Source of the DNA: Amnibacterium sp.
GTDB taxonomy: Bacteria; Actinomycetota; Actinomycetes; Actinomycetales; Microbacteriaceae
Direction of reading: 5' to 3'
DNA length: 36,889 bases
Assembly (NCBI GenBank): GCA_025936735.1
Contig: JAICSU010000005.1
Coordinates: forward strand, 1-36,889
How positions within the stretch are numbered: position 1 is the stretch's first letter; every line of letters begins with the position of its first letter. Below are positions 3,367 through 32,121 of the stretch, piece after piece. The notes beneath the pieces were generated by a model. That model saw nothing but the letters and a program-made list of their open reading frames with translations, was not told the origin of the DNA and did no database searches. Made by a program: the position numbers and the translations under genes.

Positions 3367-4245
3367 ATGCCTCGGGGGAAGGGCGCGCTCCAGCGCGCCG
3401 GTCGAGCGGCCGCGGTCGCCGCCATGGTGGTCGTCGGGCTCTCGGCCTGCTCGCTGGGCACGAGCGACGCCGGCGGCACGGCCGCGGTCGGCGGCGACAC
3501 GGGCGCCCCGTCGACGGCGAGCGTCCGGGCGGTCTCCCCCGCGTCCGGCTCCGTGAAGGGCGGCACCTCGGTCACGCTGTCGGGCACCGGCCTGTCCCAG
3601 GTCCGCTCGGTCCGCATCGGCGGCACCGTCGTGACCGCGAGCGCGCATGCCGATTCCGTGACCTTCACGACACCGTCCGCCGCGGCGTTCGTCCCCGCCA
3701 CGGACGCGGTCGTGCTCCGCAACGGATCCGGCGCGGCTGTCGGGCGGACCACCTACCGGTACCGGACGGTGGACGGCGTCGACCGCGAGCTGGCCTACGT
3801 GCTCAAGTACTGGAAGCACTACAACCCCGCCTACGAGGCGCTCACCGACAACGACTGCGTCGACTTCACGAGCCAGGCGCTGCTGCAGCGGGGGTGGCAC
3901 CAGCAGGGCGACTGGACGCACGCCGACGCCGTGCTCGACTCCGGACTCGCGTGGCGCAGCTCGACCGCCTTCCGCGACTTCATGGAGGAGCACCCCGAGC
4001 TCGGCACCGCCCTGACCGACCAGCAGCGGTCGAAGGTGAAGCTCGGCGACGTCGTGCAGTTCGACTGGGACCGCTCCGGCGACCGCGACCACACGGGTGT
4101 GGTGACGAGGATCACGAGGTCGAGGAGCGGCCACATCGAGATCTATTTCGCGGGGCACACGAACGACTCCGACTACCGCAGCGTCGACACGGCGATCACC
4201 AAGGACCACCCGGGCGGGCTCGCCTACTACTGGTCGCTCAAGTAG
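3367..4245 (+). CDS. Lipoprotein with IPT/TIG and amidase_6 domains
   Basis: 292 aa, probably anchored outside the membrane. An N-terminal signal with a lipobox (LSAC, Cys28) follows Arg/Lys-rich residues 3-13. Residues about 52-133 form an IPT/TIG immunoglobulin-like domain, with the phrase SPASGSVKGGTSVTLSGTGL typical of these domains. Residues about 138-292 match the putative amidase domain family (amidase_6, NlpC/P60-like fold): Cys164 in DNDCVDFTSQ is the likely nucleophile, and His242 in DHTGVV the likely general base. The role would be cleavage of a peptide or amide bond in the cell wall; substrate unknown. It ends 21 bases before a perfect 25-bp hairpin and converges on pheA. Domain calls are by pattern recognition, the function is inference. 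Confidence 0.85.
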   Translation: MPRGKGALQRAGRAAAVAAMVVVGLSACSLGTSDAGGTAAVGGDTGAPSTASVRAVSPASGSVKGGTSVTLSGTGLSQVRSVRIGGTVVTASAHADSVTFTTPSAAAFVPATDAVVLRNGSGAAVGRTTYRYRTVDGVDRELAYVLKYWKHYNPAYEALTDNDCVDFTSQALLQRGWHQQGDWTHADAVLDSGLAWRSSTAFRDFMEEHPELGTALTDQQRSKVKLGDVVQFDWDRSGDRDHTGVVTRITRSRSGHIEIYFAGHTNDSDYRSVDTAITKDHPGGLAYYWSLK

Positions 4246-4266
4246 CGACTCCCCGTCCCGTCGACG

Positions 4267-4317
4267 GTTGCCACTTTCTGCGGTCTTGAGGGCCTCAAGA
4301 CCGCAGAAAGTGGCAAC
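4267..4317. terminator. Perfect 25-bp hairpin (copy A of a dispersed palindrome)
   Basis: Bases 4267-4291 pair without mismatch with 4293-4317 around a single central base. Arm start: GTTGCCACTTTCTGCGG. It lies between the stops of the convergent amidase gene (4245) and pheA (4346), so it probably acts as a bidirectional terminator. A near-identical arm occurs at 29765-29817, so the element also behaves as a repeat. Confidence 0.85.
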
Positions 4318-4345
4318 ACCCACGGGAGGGGTCGGCGAGGGGGGG

Positions 4346-5287
4346 TCAGCGGGAGCGGAGGCTCTCCAGCCACGTGCGGGCCTCGGCGTACACCTCGTCG
4401 TCGTGCTCCTCGGCCGCCGCCACCGGCCGGCCGTCGGCGCGCGGGTACGAGCCGAGGAACAGCACCCGCGGGCTGAAGCGCCGCACGCCGAGCAGCGCGT
4501 CGGCCACCCGCTCGTCGTCGAGGTGCCCGTCGAGATCGATGACGAAGCGGTACCGGCCGAGCTCGTCGCCGATGGGCCGGGAGTGCAGCAACGACAGGTT
4601 GACGCCCCGGGTCGCGAACTGCTCCAGCAGCTCCAGCAGGGCCCCCGGCCGGTCCGAGGGGAGGTCCGCGACGATGCTGGTCTTGTCCGAGCCGGTGGAT
4701 GCCGGTAGCGGCATGGATCCCGCGCGGGCGACGAGCACGAATCGGGTCATCGCGTTCGGGTTGTCGCCGATGTCGGTCGCGAGCGTCGCCAGCCCGAACC
4801 GCTCCCCCGCGGTCGGTGTCGCGATCGCCGCCTGCGCGAGGTCGCCCTCGTGCTCGGCGAGGAAGCGGGCGGCCTGCACGTTCGACGCGGCGGGCAGCTG
4901 GGTGTGCGACGGCAGGTGGGCATGGAGCCAGACCCGGCACTGCGCGTACGCGACGGGATGCGCCGCCACCGAGCGGACCGACCCGAGCTCCACGCCGGGC
5001 CGGGCGACGAGCGCGAACCGTACGGGCACGAGGTACTCGCCGACGATCCGCAGGTCCGGGATGGAGGCGAGGGCGTCGAGCACGGCGGCGACCCCGCCCT
5101 CGACGGTGTTCTCGATGGCGAGCATCGCGGCGATGGACGTCCCGCCGACGACGTCGTCGAGCGCCTCGCCGATGTTGTTCACCGGCCGCCACTCGGCGCC
5201 CCGGGCGGCCGTGACCTGCGCGAGCGCAGCCTCGGTGAAGGTCCCCGCCGGACCCAGGTAGGAGTACGCGCCTGCGCCGTCGGGCAT
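4346..5287 (-). CDS. pheA: Prephenate dehydratase
   Basis: 313 aa monofunctional enzyme converting prephenate to phenylpyruvate in phenylalanine synthesis. The N-terminal catalytic domain (about 1-190) begins YSYLGPAGTFTEAA and includes AIENTVEGG (about 57-65) and the catalytic T-R-F of AMTRFVLV (about 178-185). The C-terminal ACT domain (about 200-285) carries DRPGALLELLEQFATRG and NLSLLHSRP, the conserved segments that bind phenylalanine for feedback control. There is no chorismate mutase domain. The ATG is 7 nt downstream of a TAGTCT -10 box. The gene is divergent from pgm, with 40 nt between starts, and converges on the lipoprotein gene across the hairpin. Confidence 0.95.
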   Translation of the reverse strand: MPDGAGAYSYLGPAGTFTEAALAQVTAARGAEWRPVNNIGEALDDVVGGTSIAAMLAIENTVEGGVAAVLDALASIPDLRIVGEYLVPVRFALVARPGVELGSVRSVAAHPVAYAQCRVWLHAHLPSHTQLPAASNVQAARFLAEHEGDLAQAAIATPTAGERFGLATLATDIGDNPNAMTRFVLVARAGSMPLPASTGSDKTSIVADLPSDRPGALLELLEQFATRGVNLSLLHSRPIGDELGRYRFVIDLDGHLDDERVADALLGVRRFSPRVLFLGSYPRADGRPVAAAEEHDDEVYAEARTWLESLRSR

Positions 5288-7003: not shown

Positions 7004-7312
7004 TCAGAACCGGTCGTCCGTCGGGAGGATCCGGTAGGAGATGGTCTCCGGCGGGCTGGTGACGCCGGCATCGGCCATCATCTCGCGGATCTCGGTGTTG
7101 TCGTCGAAGAACGCGTGGAACGCGTCCTCGCTCTCCCATTCGTCGACCACCAGGAGGTTGCCGTCGGCGTCCTCGGCGAACTCGTGGTGGATCGCTCCCT
7201 TCGACTTCCCCTCCTGGGAGACGTGTTCCAGCGTCTCCCGGTGCTTCCCCTTCGCCAGCTCGTCCATCGTGGACGCGGGCGCATCGAACTTCGTGATGAC
7301 CATGACGCTCAT
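7004..7312 (-). CDS. Antibiotic-biosynthesis-monooxygenase (ABM) fold protein
   Basis: 102 aa. Short single-domain protein with the ferredoxin-like ABM pattern: an initial strand VMVITKFDA, a helix with the conserved His in KGKHRETLEHV, a strand around HHEFAEDADGNLLVVDEWES, then helix AFHAFFDDNTEIREMM. Such proteins are often cofactor-free monooxygenases or small-molecule binding dimers. No substrate can be inferred. The ATG has an AGGAG Shine-Dalgarno sequence about 7 nt upstream and a recognisable -35/-10 promoter. It is a lone gene convergent with pgm. Confidence 0.75.
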   Translation of the reverse strand: MSVMVITKFDAPASTMDELAKGKHRETLEHVSQEGKSKGAIHHEFAEDADGNLLVVDEWESEDAFHAFFDDNTEIREMMADAGVTSPPETISYRILPTDDRF

Positions 7313-7445
7313 GAGTTCTCCTTCGAAACCGGTGAGGCGTCTCGGCGGCGGCCGCCGCCGCTGGCGCGCAAGGTAGACCCGCCGCGCATCAGGAGCAATA
7401 CGTGGAACCCCCCATCTTCGGCTCCGAGCGGCGCCGCAGCAGGGG
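7313..7445. other. 133-nt spacer between ABM and VanY genes
   Basis: Holds the ABM promoter (7370-7398) and, in its leader, the 16-nt self-complementary stretch GGCGGCGGCCGCCGCC at 7344-7359. The rest, next to the VanY stop, shows a 10-nt palindrome (GCGGCGCCGC) near 7426-7435 but no strong terminator. Confidence 0.5.
7370..7398 (-). promoter_or_regulatory. Promoter of the ABM gene
   Basis: Minus-strand -35 TTGCTC (7393-7398), 17-nt spacer, -10 TACCTT (7370-7375). This would give a leader of about 50 nt before ATG 7312. Confidence 0.5.
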
Positions 7446-8222
7446 TCAGCGGTACGCGGGCGAAGGGGGCAACCCGAAGAACGCCTCCAGGCTCGTGGCG
7501 CGCTCGTCGTGGTACTCCGTCGCGAGCGCCGACCCGACGTAGCGGTAGTGCCACGGCTCGAACTCGATGCCGGTCACCTGCTCCTGCCCGTCGGGGTAGC
7601 GCAGGACGAAGCCGTACCGCCATGCGTTCGCTGCGAGCCAGCGTCCCTCCGGCGTCGTCGCGAAGCACGGGTCGAGGTCGCAGTGGCCGCTCACGGTGCC
7701 GATGTCGATCGCCAGCCCGGTCTGGTGCTCGCTGTAACCAGGGCGGGCCGTCAGCCGGTCGGCCCCCGCCGGCCCGAGCCGCTGCCGGTCCGCGGCGTAG
7801 ATCCGCTGCTGGTCCGTGAAGGGCCGGTACGTGCTGTTCGACGCGAGGTGGACGCCGGCCGCCGCCCCGGCCGCGAACAGGCGCTCGGTCGCGCTCGCGG
7901 CGGCGCGGCGGAGGATCGGCGGGTTCGTGTGCGGAACGTGGACCGCGACGAGATCCGGGGGCACGAAGGACGGCGGGTGCAGCGGACGCAGCTTGTCGAC
8001 GATCACCCAGAGGCTGGCGGGGTCGTCGATCGACTGCGCCGACCGGTCGAAGGTGGGCGTGGGGGACGGGGACGGCGTCACGACCGGGCTCGGGGACGGA
8101 ATCGGGGTGCGCGGCGGCGCCGTCGCGCGGGCGGGCGCGGGGGTCGCAGAGCATGCCGAGAGCGCGACGAGAAGGCCGAGCGCGGCGAGGCCGGCCGCGA
8201 TCCGAGCCCTGCTGCTGGCCAT
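7446..8222 (-). CDS. VanY-type D-alanyl-D-alanine carboxypeptidase lipoprotein
   Basis: 258 aa. Signal peptide with lipobox LSAC (Cys24), then a Pro/Ser/Thr-rich spacer (about 27-58) that would carry the domain into the wall, then a peptidase M15B/VanY domain. Zn2+ ligands are visible: His166 and Asp173 in SEHQTGLAIDIG, and His225 in EPWHYRYVG with Glu222 as catalytic base. SNSTYRPF (128-135) is the substrate-binding segment. It should trim the terminal D-Ala of peptidoglycan stem peptides. The ATG lies 6 nt after a TATGCT -10 box. Two cysteines (181, 186) near the active site could form a disulfide. True vancomycin-resistance function is not implied; this is a housekeeping-type homologue. 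Confidence 0.9.
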   Translation of the reverse strand: MASSRARIAAGLAALGLLVALSACSATPAPARATAPPRTPIPSPSPVVTPSPSPTPTFDRSAQSIDDPASLWVIVDKLRPLHPPSFVPPDLVAVHVPHTNPPILRRAAASATERLFAAGAAAGVHLASNSTYRPFTDQQRIYAADRQRLGPAGADRLTARPGYSEHQTGLAIDIGTVSGHCDLDPCFATTPEGRWLAANAWRYGFVLRYPDGQEQVTGIEFEPWHYRYVGSALATEYHDERATSLEAFFGLPPSPAYR

Positions 8223-23980: not shown

Positions 23981-24067
23981 GAGCACGTCGGCAGGACGGA
24001 TTCGCTTCAGCAGGACGATTCCGGCTCGTTCGTCCTGCCGAAGCGAATATGTCCTGCTGAGGTGCTC
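23981..24067. repeat. 38-bp imperfect palindrome with four GCAGGAC units
   Basis: Bases 23981-24018 pair with 24030-24067, 33 of 38 positions matching, 11-nt loop; two mismatches become G-U pairs in RNA. Each arm carries two copies of GCAGGAC 19 nt apart (23991 and 24010; inverted at 24032 and 24051) flanking ATTCGCTTC. It sits between convergent stops at 23951 and 24087. It may be a bidirectional terminator, but four symmetrically spaced units also look like a protein-binding array. Confidence 0.8.
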
Positions 24068-28461: not shown

Positions 28462-28523
28462 TGAGGTGAGTGCGGCGCGAGGGCGCGTCGGTCCGTCCGT
28501 CCGCCCCGTCCTCGTGGAGCTCC

Positions 28524-29750
28524 ATGACCGCCGCCGTCGTCCATCCCGGCGACGCCCTGCACCCCAGCAGGCGTCTCGCCACCGTCGTCATCCTCGGCGT
28601 GCTCGTCGCGCTCGGCCCGTTCACGATCGACCTCTACCTGCCCGCCTTCCCGGCCGTCCGCTCGTCGTTCGGCGTCTCCGACGTCGCGATCCAGCTGACG
28701 CTCTCCGGCACGGTGGTCGGCTTCGCGGTCGGCCAGCTGCTCGTCGGCCCGTGGAGCGACCGGGTCGGCCGGCGGGTGCCGCTGCTCGTCACCACGATCG
28801 TGCACGTGACGGCGTGCCTGCTCGCCGCCGTCGCGCCGAACGTGGCCGTGCTGGGGGTGCTCCGCGTGCTGCAGGGCGCGGGTGCCGCCGGCGGTGGCGT
28901 GGTGGCCCAGGCCATGATCCGGGACCTGTTCGGCGGCCGTCCCCTCGTGAAGATGCTCGCGCGGATGGGGCTGGTCTCCGGCGCCGCGCCGGTGCTCGCG
29001 CCCCTGATCGGCTCGCAGCTGCTGCGGGTGCTCGACTGGCGCGGGCTCTTCGTGTCGCTCGCGATCTACGGCGTCGCCGGCCTCGCGGCGGCCGCGGTCG
29101 GCATCGGCGAGACCCGGCACACCGGAGGGTCGGGCGCCGTCCGCAGCGTCCGTTCGCGCTACCGCGCGGTGCTCACCGACCGGGTCTTCCTCGGCGCCGC
29201 GGCCGTGGGGGCGATGCAGTTCAGCGGCCTCTTCGCGTACCTGTCGACGTCGTCGTTCCTCTTCCAGGAGGTCTACCGCTTCACCCCGCAGCAGTACGGG
29301 ATCCTCTTCGCGATCAACTCGATCGGCGTGATCGGCGGATCGCAGGCGGCCGCGCGGGTGATGCGCCGGGTGGGGCCGCAGTGGATCCTCGCCGTCACGA
29401 CCGCGGTGCAGGCGGCCAGCGGCCTCGCGATCCTCGCCCTCGGCGGCGCGGATGCCCCCCTGCCGCTCGTGCTCGTGCCGCTCTGGCTCTTCGTCGCCGC
29501 GTGCGGCTTCGGGTTCCCGAGTGTGCAGGTGCTCGCGCTCGCGCACCACGGCGAGGAGGCGGGCACCGCCGCGAGCCTGCTCGGCGCGGTGAACTTCGGG
29601 CTCGCCGGGCTGCTGTCGCCGCTCGTCGGGCTGCTCGGCATCGCCTCTGGGCGTCCCATGGGCCTCGTCATGGCGGTCACCGCCGTGCTCGGCATCACCG
29701 GGCTGTGGCTGCTCGTCCGGCCGCGCACGGTCCCGTCGATCGGCTCCTGA
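28524..29750 (+). CDS. Bcr/CflA-family multidrug MFS exporter
   Basis: 408 aa, 12 predicted helices. FTIDLYLPAFPAV in the first helix and loop is characteristic of the Bcr/CflA (DHA1) drug-efflux group. Motif A is QLLVGPWSDRVGRRVPLL (about 71-88) and the motif C-like region RMGLVSGAAPVLAPLIGS (about 150-167) is the antiporter signature. It would export drugs or amino acids such as cysteine by proton antiport. ATG 28524 has GGAG 5 nt upstream; an in-frame GTG at 28470 would add 18 Ser/Arg-rich residues and is less likely. Ends before the second copy of the dispersed palindrome and converges on hemL. Confidence 0.9.
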   Translation: MTAAVVHPGDALHPSRRLATVVILGVLVALGPFTIDLYLPAFPAVRSSFGVSDVAIQLTLSGTVVGFAVGQLLVGPWSDRVGRRVPLLVTTIVHVTACLLAAVAPNVAVLGVLRVLQGAGAAGGGVVAQAMIRDLFGGRPLVKMLARMGLVSGAAPVLAPLIGSQLLRVLDWRGLFVSLAIYGVAGLAAAAVGIGETRHTGGSGAVRSVRSRYRAVLTDRVFLGAAAVGAMQFSGLFAYLSTSSFLFQEVYRFTPQQYGILFAINSIGVIGGSQAAARVMRRVGPQWILAVTTAVQAASGLAILALGGADAPLPLVLVPLWLFVAACGFGFPSVQVLALAHHGEEAGTAASLLGAVNFGLAGLLSPLVGLLGIASGRPMGLVMAVTAVLGITGLWLLVRPRTVPSIGS

Positions 29751-29764
29751 CCGCCCCCTCCGAC

Positions 29765-29817
29765 GGTTGCCACTTCTTGCGGTCTTGACGCCCTCAAGAC
29801 CGCAAGAAGTGGCAACC
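29765..29817. terminator. Perfect 24-bp hairpin (copy B of the dispersed palindrome)
   Basis: Bases 29765-29788 pair exactly with 29794-29817 around a 5-nt loop. The arm reads like copy A at 4267 apart from two adjacent positions, and both changes are compensated in the opposite arm. It begins 15 nt after the exporter stop and ends 2 nt before the hemL stop, so it should terminate both. Confidence 0.87.
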
Positions 29818-29818
29818 C

Positions 29819-31144
29819 TCAGGCGGGTGGGGACGCGGAGGCGGCGGCGCGGGCCGCGGCCGGGAGCGCCTCCTCGATGCGGGACAGCGCCTCGTCGTCG
29901 TGCGCCGCCGTGAGGAACCACGCCTCGTACACGGACGGCGGCAGGCTCACGCCCGCGTCGAGCATCGCGTGGAAGAACGGCGGATACCGCCAGGCCTCCT
30001 GCGTCCGCACCTCGTCGTAGTCCTTCGGCGTCTCGGTCGTGCCGAGAACGACGCTGAACAGGTTGCCGGCGCGCGGGATCGCGTGGGGCAGGCCCGCCTC
30101 GCTGAGCGCCCGGTCGACGGCGGTCATCACGCGCTCGGCCGCGGCGTCGATCCGCGCGTAGACCTCGGCGTCGGCGGCACGCAGCGTCGCGATGCCGGCC
30201 GCGACCGCGACGGGATTCCCCGACAGCGTCCCCGCCTGGTAGACGGGTCCCTCGGGCGCGAGCCGCTCCATGACCGCGGCACCGCCGCCGAGCGCGGCGA
30301 GCGGCATCCCCCCGCCGATGACCTTGCCGAAGGTGATCAGGTCCACGTCGACGGGGCCGCCGGGCTCGACCGCCCACCAGCCGCCGGCGGAGACGCGGAA
30401 GCCGGTGAGCACCTCGTCCGAGACGAGCAGCGCGCCGTCGGCATGCGCGATCTCGGCGAGGAACCGGTTGAACCCCGGCTCCGGCGCGACGACGCCCATG
30501 TTCGCGGCGGCGGCCTCCGTGATGACGGCGGCGATGCGTCCCGGATGGGCCTCGAACGCCAGCCGCACCGCCGCCTCGTCGTTGTAGGGCAGCACGAGCG
30601 TCTGGCCCGCGACGGCCGCGGGCACGCCGGCCGACGCCGGCAGGGCGAGGGTGGCGACGCCGGAGCCCGCCTCGGCGAGCAGCCCGTCGGAGTGGCCGTG
30701 GTAGTGCCCGGCGAACTTCACGACCAGGTCCCGCCCGGTGAAGCCCCGGGCGAGGCGGATCGCGGTCATCGTCGCCTCGGTGCCGGTCGAGACGAGGCGC
30801 AACCGCTCGATCGGGGCGCGCCCGTCCCGCACGACGCGTCCGTGCACGAGCTCCGCCAGCTCGACCTCGCCCTCGGTCGGCGCACCGAAGGAGAGGCCCC
30901 GCTCCGCCGCCCGCTGCACCGCGTCGACGACGCCCGGATGGGCGTGGCCGAGGATCGCCGGTCCCCAGCTCGCGACGAGGTCGACGTACTCGCGCCCCGC
31001 GGCGTCGATCACGTGCGGTCCCCGGGCGGCGGTGATGAACAGCGGCGTCCCGCCGACCGATCCGTACGCCCGCACGGGGGAGTTCACGCCACCGGGGATC
31101 ACGCGGCGGGCGCGCGCGAAGAGCTCGCCGTTGGTCGGCGTCAT
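29819..31144 (-). CDS. hemL: Glutamate-1-semialdehyde 2,1-aminomutase
   Basis: 441 aa PLP enzyme making 5-aminolevulinate from glutamate-1-semialdehyde (C5 pathway). The start [18 protein letters not shown] is diagnostic; [20 protein letters not shown] (119-138) binds PLP phosphate; [12 protein letters not shown] (239-250) holds the ring-contact Asp; Lys274 in [11 protein letters not shown] is the Schiff-base lysine. It is the last gene of the haem operon, start overlapping the hemB stop by 4 nt. Glutamyl-tRNA reductase (hemA), its usual partner, is not in the window. Confidence 0.96.
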
Positions 31145-32121
31145 CGCGTCCGCAGCCATCCGGCCACCTCGACGGCCCAGTAGGTGAGGACCGCGTCGGC
31201 CCCGGCCCGGCGGATGCCGGTGATCGTCTCGAGCACCGCGCGGTCCCGGTCGATCCAGCCGTTCGCCGCGGCCGCCTCGACCATCGCGTACTCGCCGGAC
31301 ACCTGGTAGGCCCACACCGGAACGGGGCTCGTCGCCGCGACGTCGGCGAGCACGTCGAGGTAGCTCATCGCTGGCTTCACCATCACGACGTCGGCGCCCT
31401 GCTCGATGTCGAGCACCGCCTCGCGGCGGCCCTCGCGCCGGTTCGCGGGGTCGAGCTGGTAGGTGCGCCGGTCGCCCTGCAGCGCGGACTCGACCGCGTC
31501 GCGGAAGGGGCCGTAGAAGGCGGAGGCGTACTTGGCCGCGTAACCGAGCAGGAGCACGTCGCTGCGTCCCGCGGCGTCGAGCGCCTCCCGCACCGCGGCG
31601 ACCTGGCCGTCCATCATCCCGGACAGGCCGAGCAGGGCGGATCCGGCGTCCGCCTGGGCGATGGCCATCTCGCGGTACCGCTCGAGGGTCGCGTCGTTGT
31701 CGACGGAGCCGTCGGAGGCGAGGACGCCGCAGTGCCCGTGGTCGGTGAACTCGTCCAGGCAGAGGTCCGTCTGCACGACGAGCGCTTCGCCGACCTCCTC
31801 AGCGACGACGCGGGTCGCGACGTTGAGGATCCCGTCGGGGTCCGTCGCGCCGGACCCGACCGCGTCCCGCTGCTCCGGGATGCCGAACAGCATGATGCCG
31901 CCGAGACCGGCCTCGGCGGCCTGGACGGCGGCGGCGCGGAGGCTGCCGAGGCTGTGGTGGACGACGCCCGGCATCGAGACGATCGGCCTCGGCTCGTCGA
32001 TGCCCTCCTTCACGAACACGGGCAGCACGAGCTGGGCCGGATCGAGGCGGGTCTCCGCCATGAGGCGGCGGACGGCCGCGGACTGCCGAAGCCTGCGCGG
32101 GCGGATGGTCAGCGAGGTCAT
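31141..32121 (-). CDS. hemB: Porphobilinogen synthase (5-aminolevulinate dehydratase)
   Basis: 326 aa. Condenses two 5-aminolevulinates to porphobilinogen. The two active-site lysines are Lys197 ([14 protein letters not shown]) and Lys249 ([11 protein letters not shown]). [15 protein letters not shown] is the conserved stretch after the barrel strand. The metal region reads [14 protein letters not shown] (119-132): Cys121 and Cys131 are kept but the middle position is Asp123 instead of Cys, a mixed form between zinc-type (three Cys) and Asp-type enzymes. It overlaps hemD (upstream) and hemL (downstream) by 4 nt each. Confidence 0.96.

Follow-up and report, generated by a model that had tools for sequence, protein, structure and literature searches.

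Two intergenic hairpins in the window, the whole 36,889-nt stretch of Amnibacterium sp. DNA analysed here, belong to a dispersed family of 51-nt palindromes that is best explained, with a probability of roughly 0.6, as a REPIN-like satellite whose partner is a Vsr-like nuclease and not a tyrosine transposase. The palindromes would be the dispersed, gene-less copies of a two-part element. They keep their arms and length, lie at the 3' ends of genes and occupy the same junctions in the species pairs compared, and in several genera nuclease genes are bracketed by palindromes specific to each gene. The nuclease is the candidate for recognising, cutting and mobilising them, and some copies may terminate transcription.

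Two palindromes in the window

Copy A (4267-4317) and copy B (29766-29816) are each 51 nt long, are assigned to no strand and share the form GTTGCCACTT-N31-AAGTGGCAAC, so the two hairpins with nearly the same arm that the earlier note described are real. The note had drawn copy B at 29765-29817; a palindrome is there, but its true bounds lie one base further in at each end. The compensated two-base difference between the copies is as first read (TC/GA in A, CT/AG in B, adjoining the constant GTTGCCACTT), and so are the differing loops. All 25 positions of each arm are paired in copy A, with a single base left at the centre; in copy B 24 of the 25 are paired, and its fold shows a 5-nt loop. CGACG precedes both copies, as the note had also seen (4262-4266 and 29761-29765, no strand), and this left flank tag is conserved in part across copies.

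Both copies stand between convergent stops, another point on which the first reading holds. Copy A follows by 21 nt the stop of a gene with Amidase_6 and TIG domains (3367-4245, + strand), and the stop of a converging prephenate dehydratase gene (4346-5287, - strand) lies 28 nt after it. At copy B, an MFS transporter gene (28470-29750, + strand) stops 15 nt before the palindrome, and a class-III aminotransferase gene, hemL by reading (29819-31159, - strand), stops 2 nt after it. Another convergent junction of the window (23951/24087) holds a 38-bp inverted repeat (23981-24067, 87% complementary) unrelated in sequence to the family.

The likeness of A and B is not chance, because GTTGCCACTT with at most one mismatch occurs at four sites in the window, all within the two copies, against 0.43 expected, and their RNA folds are strong (-55.6 to -66.5 kcal/mol, z -10 to -13). 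In an Rfam search of copy A only (window 3800-4800), no match reached its gathering score; the microRNA hairpins listed at the palindrome fell below that score and were taken as chance. A copy-specific extension of the stem into the flanks, suggested by eye at both copies, was rejected. Each copy's own flank pairs matched no better than permuted ones, so the apparent extension reflects base composition, C-rich before the palindrome and G-rich after it.

A family of fixed length and constant arms

The genome of origin (G000) is a draft of 2,943,590 bases in 322 contigs, 84% complete. It holds 25 exact GTTGCCACTT-N-AAGTGGCAAC palindromes, all with N31 and hence 51 nt long though N15-40 was allowed, and 45 with at most three mismatches at a fixed N31; the reversed control gave 0 in either search. 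These counts rule out the possibility that the genome has only two copies. Three of the 45 (C48:8826, C195:10079 and C271:5782; L040, L045 and L046) were set aside, which leaves a family of 42. The three have in common an interior and flank that differ from those of the main family, and form a second palindrome family, likewise at gene ends, TGCCACTTCTCGCC..GGCGAGAAG[TC]GGCA. With 25 exact and 42 family copies, the earlier note was right to suggest an element that is REP-like, multicopy and constrained in sequence, lies at gene 3' ends and is unlike an ordinary terminator.

Half-sites are almost confined to palindromes. The 10-mer GTTGCCACTT has 66 sites in the genome, 65 of them inside the 45 palindrome places and the last on contig C91 (reversed control 0). 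In stretches of the copy-rich sister species G073 and G197, 120 of 120 half-site 10-mers have a partner at spacing 31 with at most four mismatches. Exact core pairs TGCCACTT/AAGTGGCA are 31 apart in 85 of 85 cases (42 in G073, 16 in G197 and 27 in the own genome), with spacings of 10-60 allowed. The arm GTTGCCAC is nearly invariant across the 42 own copies; the bases after GTTGCCACTT vary, often with a matching change. Most copies keep TGCGG, and the centre is variable. The flanks vary as well (CGA[CG][GT]-like on the left, [ACG][CG]TCG-like on the right), with CGTC in some copies only. Among 45 sampled G073 copies there are 36 sequences, one of which occurs six times.

Covariation of the arms, as the earlier note expected, is real but modest. 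Over the 42 copies it scores 0.129. Shuffles score 0.111, with 4 of 500 reaching the observed value, and sliding the partner position gives 0.045-0.068; on the stated structure, 84.9% of cells pair, compared with 84.0% in shuffles.

Placement at gene ends

Called genes lie on both sides of 39 of the 42 own copies, by a simple codon-usage script, and these copies divide into 15 convergent, 19 codirectional and 5 divergent. Convergent regions make up 11.5% of intergenic bases, so the 15 of 39 are an excess (p 1.4e-5); divergent regions make up 31%, and the 5 of 39 are a deficit (p 0.0065). The base rates come from 393 kb of the own genome, namely the window plus the contigs that hold at least one copy. 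Of the same 39 copies, 33 lie at most 33 nt after a facing stop codon, nine of these exactly 2 nt after it. The 45 sampled G073 copies are 21 convergent, 17 codirectional and 4 divergent, with 3 inside a called ORF.

By position, a role as bidirectional terminators is plausible for the copies at convergent ends. As in intrinsic terminators, a stable hairpin stands right after the stop codon; no U-tract or T-run terminator-like site is listed at copy A or copy B. Transcript strand, sought through an excess of G.U over A.C pairs, left no signal (20 G.U, 14 A.C, p 0.2). In codirectional copies of G073 and G197 an inner asymmetric motif is oriented 15 to 6, a count not used as evidence. The placement after stops and between convergent genes could reflect retention of harmless insertions or use as terminators.

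Conservation at orthologous junctions

G073 and G197 are 87-96% identical in aligned stretches of more than 300 bases, except for one 378-base piece at 69%. Each of the 13 G073 copies in the compared stretches has a G197 copy at the same junction. In the other direction, 11 of 17 G197 copies could be placed in G073 stretches, all 11 with a G073 copy, and six could not be placed. Most G197 stretches were fetched around that genome's own listed copies, one (for L115) being used by synteny alone, so the 13 of 13 describes positional conservation and not an unbiased rate. Transposition is evidently not frequent, since sister species keep copies at the same places in the pairs compared, and no movement of copies was seen there.

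The 10-nt arms of the 13 pairs agree at 256 of 260 positions (98%), and the CGCGA/TCGCG tags, which flank G073 copies symmetrically, at 128 of 130. The 10 bases outside the tags on either side, aligned without gaps, agree at 141 of 260, and the interiors at 10 to 30 of 31; one interior is clearly inverted (L118/L254, 16/31 direct and 25/31 reversed). Across the 11 inner pairs examined per copy, 97 of 143 are unchanged, 27 carry a one-sided change that breaks pairing, 5 a one-sided change that keeps it, 8 two-sided changes that keep it, and 6 two-sided changes that leave the bases unpaired. Since pair-breaking changes outnumber compensated ones 27 to 8, the compensated difference between A and B is by itself no proof of selection on the hairpin. 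Near-identical arms, drifting interiors and broken pairs indicate that arms and length are under stronger selection or homogenisation than interior pairing.

Past insertion is suggested by one G073 copy (L269:10696) that lies in frame inside hrpA and codes for about 19 residues of a 30-residue insert. The HrpA product aligns with a solved HrpA (9ggr) on both sides of the insert, and nothing in 9ggr corresponds to residues 438-467, within which the palindrome-coded stretch lies; the comparison points to an insertion event.

Unrelated hairpins at homologous loci, which the earlier note had named as counting against its reading, were found in part. At the hemL/MFS junction, read in five congeners, G004 has an eroded family member and the other four (G001, G003, G005 and G006) have hairpins of other sequence. 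The G004 junction (contig C176) was recognised by its MFS neighbour, 92% identical to the window's, and its hemL is 79% identical; a second hemL of G004, on C105 and 89% identical, has a different neighbour and lacks the element. The pheA junction, read in two congeners, has no element in G004 and another repeat in G006. At the greA junction of the G073 genus, read at 12 of 15 loci (230 nt each), four loci have the family, six have neither palindrome type, and two (G771 and G775) have a shifted-end palindrome, GAGACGCCACCT, of shorter span.

Other repeats were met at such places. A long repeat, TCCGCGGCGTTGTCGTCGGGCGCGATACCGCCGGTATCGC or close to it, lies at the greA junction in five species, in tandem in some (L170, L172-L175). 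G006 has a different paired repeat with GTGTAGGTACTTCG at both its pheA and its hemL junction (L138, L145, L179-L198), and a 12-mer search over 400 kb of that genome found no 12-mer in six or more intergenic regions. In G405 the 12-mer search found another family, made up of CTGGTCGAGTAG..CGTATCGAGACC repeats scattered over 400 kb; about 24 of the 253 intergenic regions there have them, and 14 of those regions are convergent (L199-L218, also L110 and L171).

Distribution among relatives

Searched with at most two mismatches, 398 Microbacteriaceae genomes gave matches in 25 genomes from 10 of 85 genera, at 1 to 88 per genome; the reversed control gave one match each in three genomes. With fitting ends (GATGCC..GGCATC), the count rises to 97 copies in G073 and 93 in G197, and the copy number within the genus of G073 differs by species, from 0 to 97. 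The exact core occurs in 2 of 396 genomes drawn from the order, the own genome and G730. A covariance model of the 42 copies (E 0.01, both strands counted, 150 candidates scored per genome) gave 96 matches in G000, 53 in G004, 29 in G001, 11 in G003, 8 in G002, 2 in G006 and none in G005.

A scan of 84,980 species, in which the arms were exact by construction and the length was left free at 48-54, returned 24 stretches. Twenty are in Amnibacterium, Naasia, Frigoribacterium, Microbacterium, Arthrobacter and Haematomicrobium; the four in unrelated bacteria were taken as chance. The actinobacterial stretches are 51 nt long except for one of 50 and one of 52. Core arms and length are shared by some relatives in the Microbacteriaceae and Micrococcaceae, whose interiors are different and vary from genus to genus. 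In most of the stretches outside Amnibacterium the flanks lengthen the palindrome as CGA..TCG. In G321 (C2:1058402-1059187, L129) an array of family-like 51-mers repeats with a period of about 184 bases.

Phages, plasmids and viral contigs were considered as carriers of this palindrome and rejected. BLAST with copy A matched nothing in phages, BLAST with copy B matched nothing in plasmids, and viral contigs held no exact match of the GATGCC form; three viral contigs sharing one AT-rich sequence were judged unrelated to it.

A nuclease gene between palindromes

The congener G001 has a 301-aa gene with palindrome doublets on both sides, whose product weakly matches MTES_1575 and DUF559 at its C-terminus. 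A homologue search over all called genes and ORFs in 2.54 Mb of partly redundant stretches found 10 distinct homologues in 10 genomes, each near a palindrome in stretches fetched because they bear palindromes: G000, G001, G002, G003, G073, G197, G143, G137, Naasia sp. SYSU D00057 (G297) and Arthrobacter sp. H35-MC1. The own gene (G000 L034, contig C145, about 7196-8125) lies between two palindrome copies; its reading frame continues upstream, giving a longer N-terminus that resembles those of its relatives. In G143, the sole copy found with at most two mismatches is one of two beside the nuclease gene.

An automated test found matching hairpins in both 350-nt flanks of 8 of these 10 genes, compared with 8 of 1498 control genes, 7 of which sit in palindrome-bearing genomes. 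The nuclease genes of G137 and G002 fail it, having palindromes on one side only. As in MITEs, the gene-less copies share their ends with a gene-bearing element, in G000 and seven other genomes, the gene here being the nuclease in a putative transposase role. Copies also stand on both sides of other genes in copy-rich G073. No nuclease gene was located in the stretches read, part of each genome, of G004, G246, G324, G331, G321, G344 and G386.

Between G073 and G197 the nuclease is 80% identical and nine neighbours are 90-100% identical, one truncated neighbour without a counterpart having been dropped. The palindromes beside this one gene (L116, L126) share an interior type, GGGTAC in G073 and ATGAGC in G197, that is uncommon among sampled copies.

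The bracketed gene is predicted to encode a Vsr-like (DUF559/MTES_1575) nuclease with an AbiEi-like N-terminal region. At E 0.01 or better, MTES_1575 matches 11 of 11 aligned proteins, DUF559 10 of 11, and AbiEi models at least 7 of 11 (own protein, E 0.0054). Of six proteins, four score above the DUF559 cut-off; that of the own genome falls below the curated Pfam cut-offs for both MTES_1575 and DUF559, with 18.1 against 20.6 bits for the latter. Invariant residues of its nuclease part include E185, D218, H235 and D244, which we take to be of the catalytic kind. Profiles matched PDB 3hrl, an endonuclease-like protein, at E 3.8e-5, and weakly 3r3p, a 'mobile intron protein', at E 0.93. AlphaFold models of two sequences had a mean pLDDT of 41.5 and were left out of the conclusions.

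Palindromes found from the protein

A search from protein alone, tblastn of two nuclease proteins and one hit against plasmid and phage records, found eight distinct homologues. Matching palindromic ends flank six of the eight by reading and four of the eight by automated criteria: L293, L295 and L297 pass a first bracketing test, and L293, L294 and L295 pass the 350-nt flank test. Reading the sequences shows matching palindromes at L296 and, at either end of L298, a 16-nt arm with a small hairpin, the two ends forming an inverted repeat. No palindromes were seen beside the homologues in L299 (Nonomuraea) and L300 (a phage contig), and viral contigs yielded no relative of the nuclease. Overall, 9 of 16 nuclease genes pass the first bracketing test. 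Among the controls 8 of 1510 genes do so, but these include the G073 nuclease under another locus id, and without it the figure is 7 of 1509. For L294, L296, L299 and L300, both tests used estimated gene bounds.

The palindromes at the nuclease ends differ. They read TTGAGGGCCC.. in Arthrobacter ERGS1:01; those of StoSoilB13-2 read CGAGATGRCA.., are 57 nt long and are visibly like CGAGATGCCACTT. Each of three Tsukamurella paralogues (p12, p22 and p9) has an end sequence of its own. The two searched for are themselves dispersed, the p12 palindrome at 20 places in eight Tsukamurella records and the p22 palindrome at 12 places in nine, with strands partly counted twice. Because end sequences differ per nuclease, even among these paralogues, palindrome sequence goes with the nuclease and not with the genome.

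Proposed mechanism and alternatives

The nuclease gene, bracketed by two copies of the same palindrome, would be the other part of the element. Its product would recognise two inverted arms held 31 nt apart and cut or nick at them, and repair would copy the palindrome to new sites and between existing copies. Such break-and-copy would account for lineage-specific amplification and for constant arms and length around drifting or flipped interiors. It would also explain identical copies in one genome, the likeness of neighbouring copies and the change of palindrome with nuclease. Insertions would survive mainly just after stop codons, and a hairpin at a convergent junction could then serve both genes as terminator.

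The palindromes might instead be host-maintained hairpins for termination or 3'-end processing, with arms that bind a host factor, spread by gene conversion and duplication beside a nuclease that is an incidental neighbour. Enrichment at 3' ends and convergent junctions, strong folds, and arms and positions conserved in sister species all fit such a role, as do the hairpins that congeners have at the same junction, most of which differ in sequence. A terminator, however, needs neither a constant 31-nt spacing nor constant arms, interior pairing is often broken, neither A nor B has a T-run site, and one copy lies inside hrpA. Nuclease genes bracketed by gene-specific palindromes in unrelated records also speak against host maintenance, which is considered unlikely.

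AbiEi binds inverted repeats, and the palindromes could be operators or self-marks of the nuclease, its AbiEi-like part repressing or guarding and the dispersed copies being decoys or immunity marks and not mobile DNA. The AbiEi similarity, the copies that flank the nuclease gene on its promoter side too, and the half-sites that never stand alone in the G073 and G197 stretches accord with that idea. It is nonetheless judged improbable, for copies follow the stops of ordinary genes and not promoters, divergent regions are depleted, and the G073 genus ranges from no copies to 97.

Ordinary REP or REPIN elements moved by a Y1 tyrosine transposase (RAYT) resemble the family as dispersed, multicopy intergenic palindromes, in their doublets and in 3'-end location. 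The RAYT-type gene that the earlier note proposed looking for did not appear: PF01797 at E 0.001 matched in none of 18 genomes, which include copy-rich G000 (84% complete), G073, G197, G246 and G331, and the same search gave matches in 5 of 14 control genomes. Own and G073 copies also lack a constant GTAG or CGTC tag at one end, and this origin is very improbable.

DNA uptake sequences, which in Neisseria and Pasteurellaceae occur as inverted pairs, share the short constant motif, the inverted pairing and the gene-end location, but uptake motifs mostly occur singly, and with abundant single motifs absent from this family (palindromes contain 65 of 66 own half-sites, and 120 of 120 are paired in the G073 and G197 stretches), a fixed spacing and a low copy number they are scarcely a credible source.

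Relation to known elements and significance

The REPIN/RAYT system is a close parallel in the available part of its description (Bertels & Rainey, 2011, PMC3116915): inverted short arms and a spacer make a hairpin unit dispersed between genes, with an associated enzyme gene and several sequence groups that each have their own enzyme. By comparison with that text, the present family has a Vsr-like nuclease with an AbiEi-like region instead of a Y1 transposase, a rigid spacing of 31 and tens of copies. CGTC-tagged REPs, as set out in the available text, are likewise short palindromes for which no transposase is known, and most lie after genes, between unidirectional or convergent neighbours (Di Nocera, 2013, PMC3733652). 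They have 8-9 bp stems and CGTC tags and occur in five phyla, Proteobacteria above all, and 'Actinobacteria' is absent from the main text as available (PMC3733652). The palindromes here differ from that account in being 51-57 nt long, not uniformly tagged and accompanied by a nuclease partner.

The C-terminal nuclease domain of the bracketed gene is of the MTES_1575/DUF559 type, and MTES_1575 is described, in the part of the source available, as a restriction endonuclease of Vsr fold, a domain of a large fused conflict protein; that part states no link to palindromic repeats (Anantharaman, 2013, PMC3710099). Among the open-licence papers listed by the searches, none, so far as its text was available, links DUF559, MTES_1575 or Vsr nucleases to dispersed palindromes.

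A possible model for the proposed mechanism exists in the Vsr-like (EDxHD) homing endonucleases of group I introns, in which a related nuclease fold spreads DNA by break repair. The present case differs in that no intron or intein was seen and the DNA spread would be a palindrome without the gene.

A wider claim is more tentative, at a little under even odds. The family may represent a new class of selfish two-part element in Actinomycetota, in which an AbiEi-like reader joined to a Vsr-like nuclease spreads and homogenises palindromes by break-and-copy, each nuclease lineage, even each paralogue, having its own palindrome code and hosts receiving ready-made bidirectional terminators. If true, it would be a functional counterpart of RAYT/REPIN built on an unrelated enzyme.

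The available account of CGTC REPs states that families of short palindromic repeats with no known enzyme to mobilise them are an open case (PMC3733652). The repeat-bracketed nuclease, with matched sequences across genera and paralogues, offers a concrete candidate enzyme for one such family, and the question of nuclease and palindrome becomes testable with one protein and one 60-bp substrate. The finding also gives a handle on actinobacterial DUF559-type genes and on the shared hairpins at convergent gene ends.
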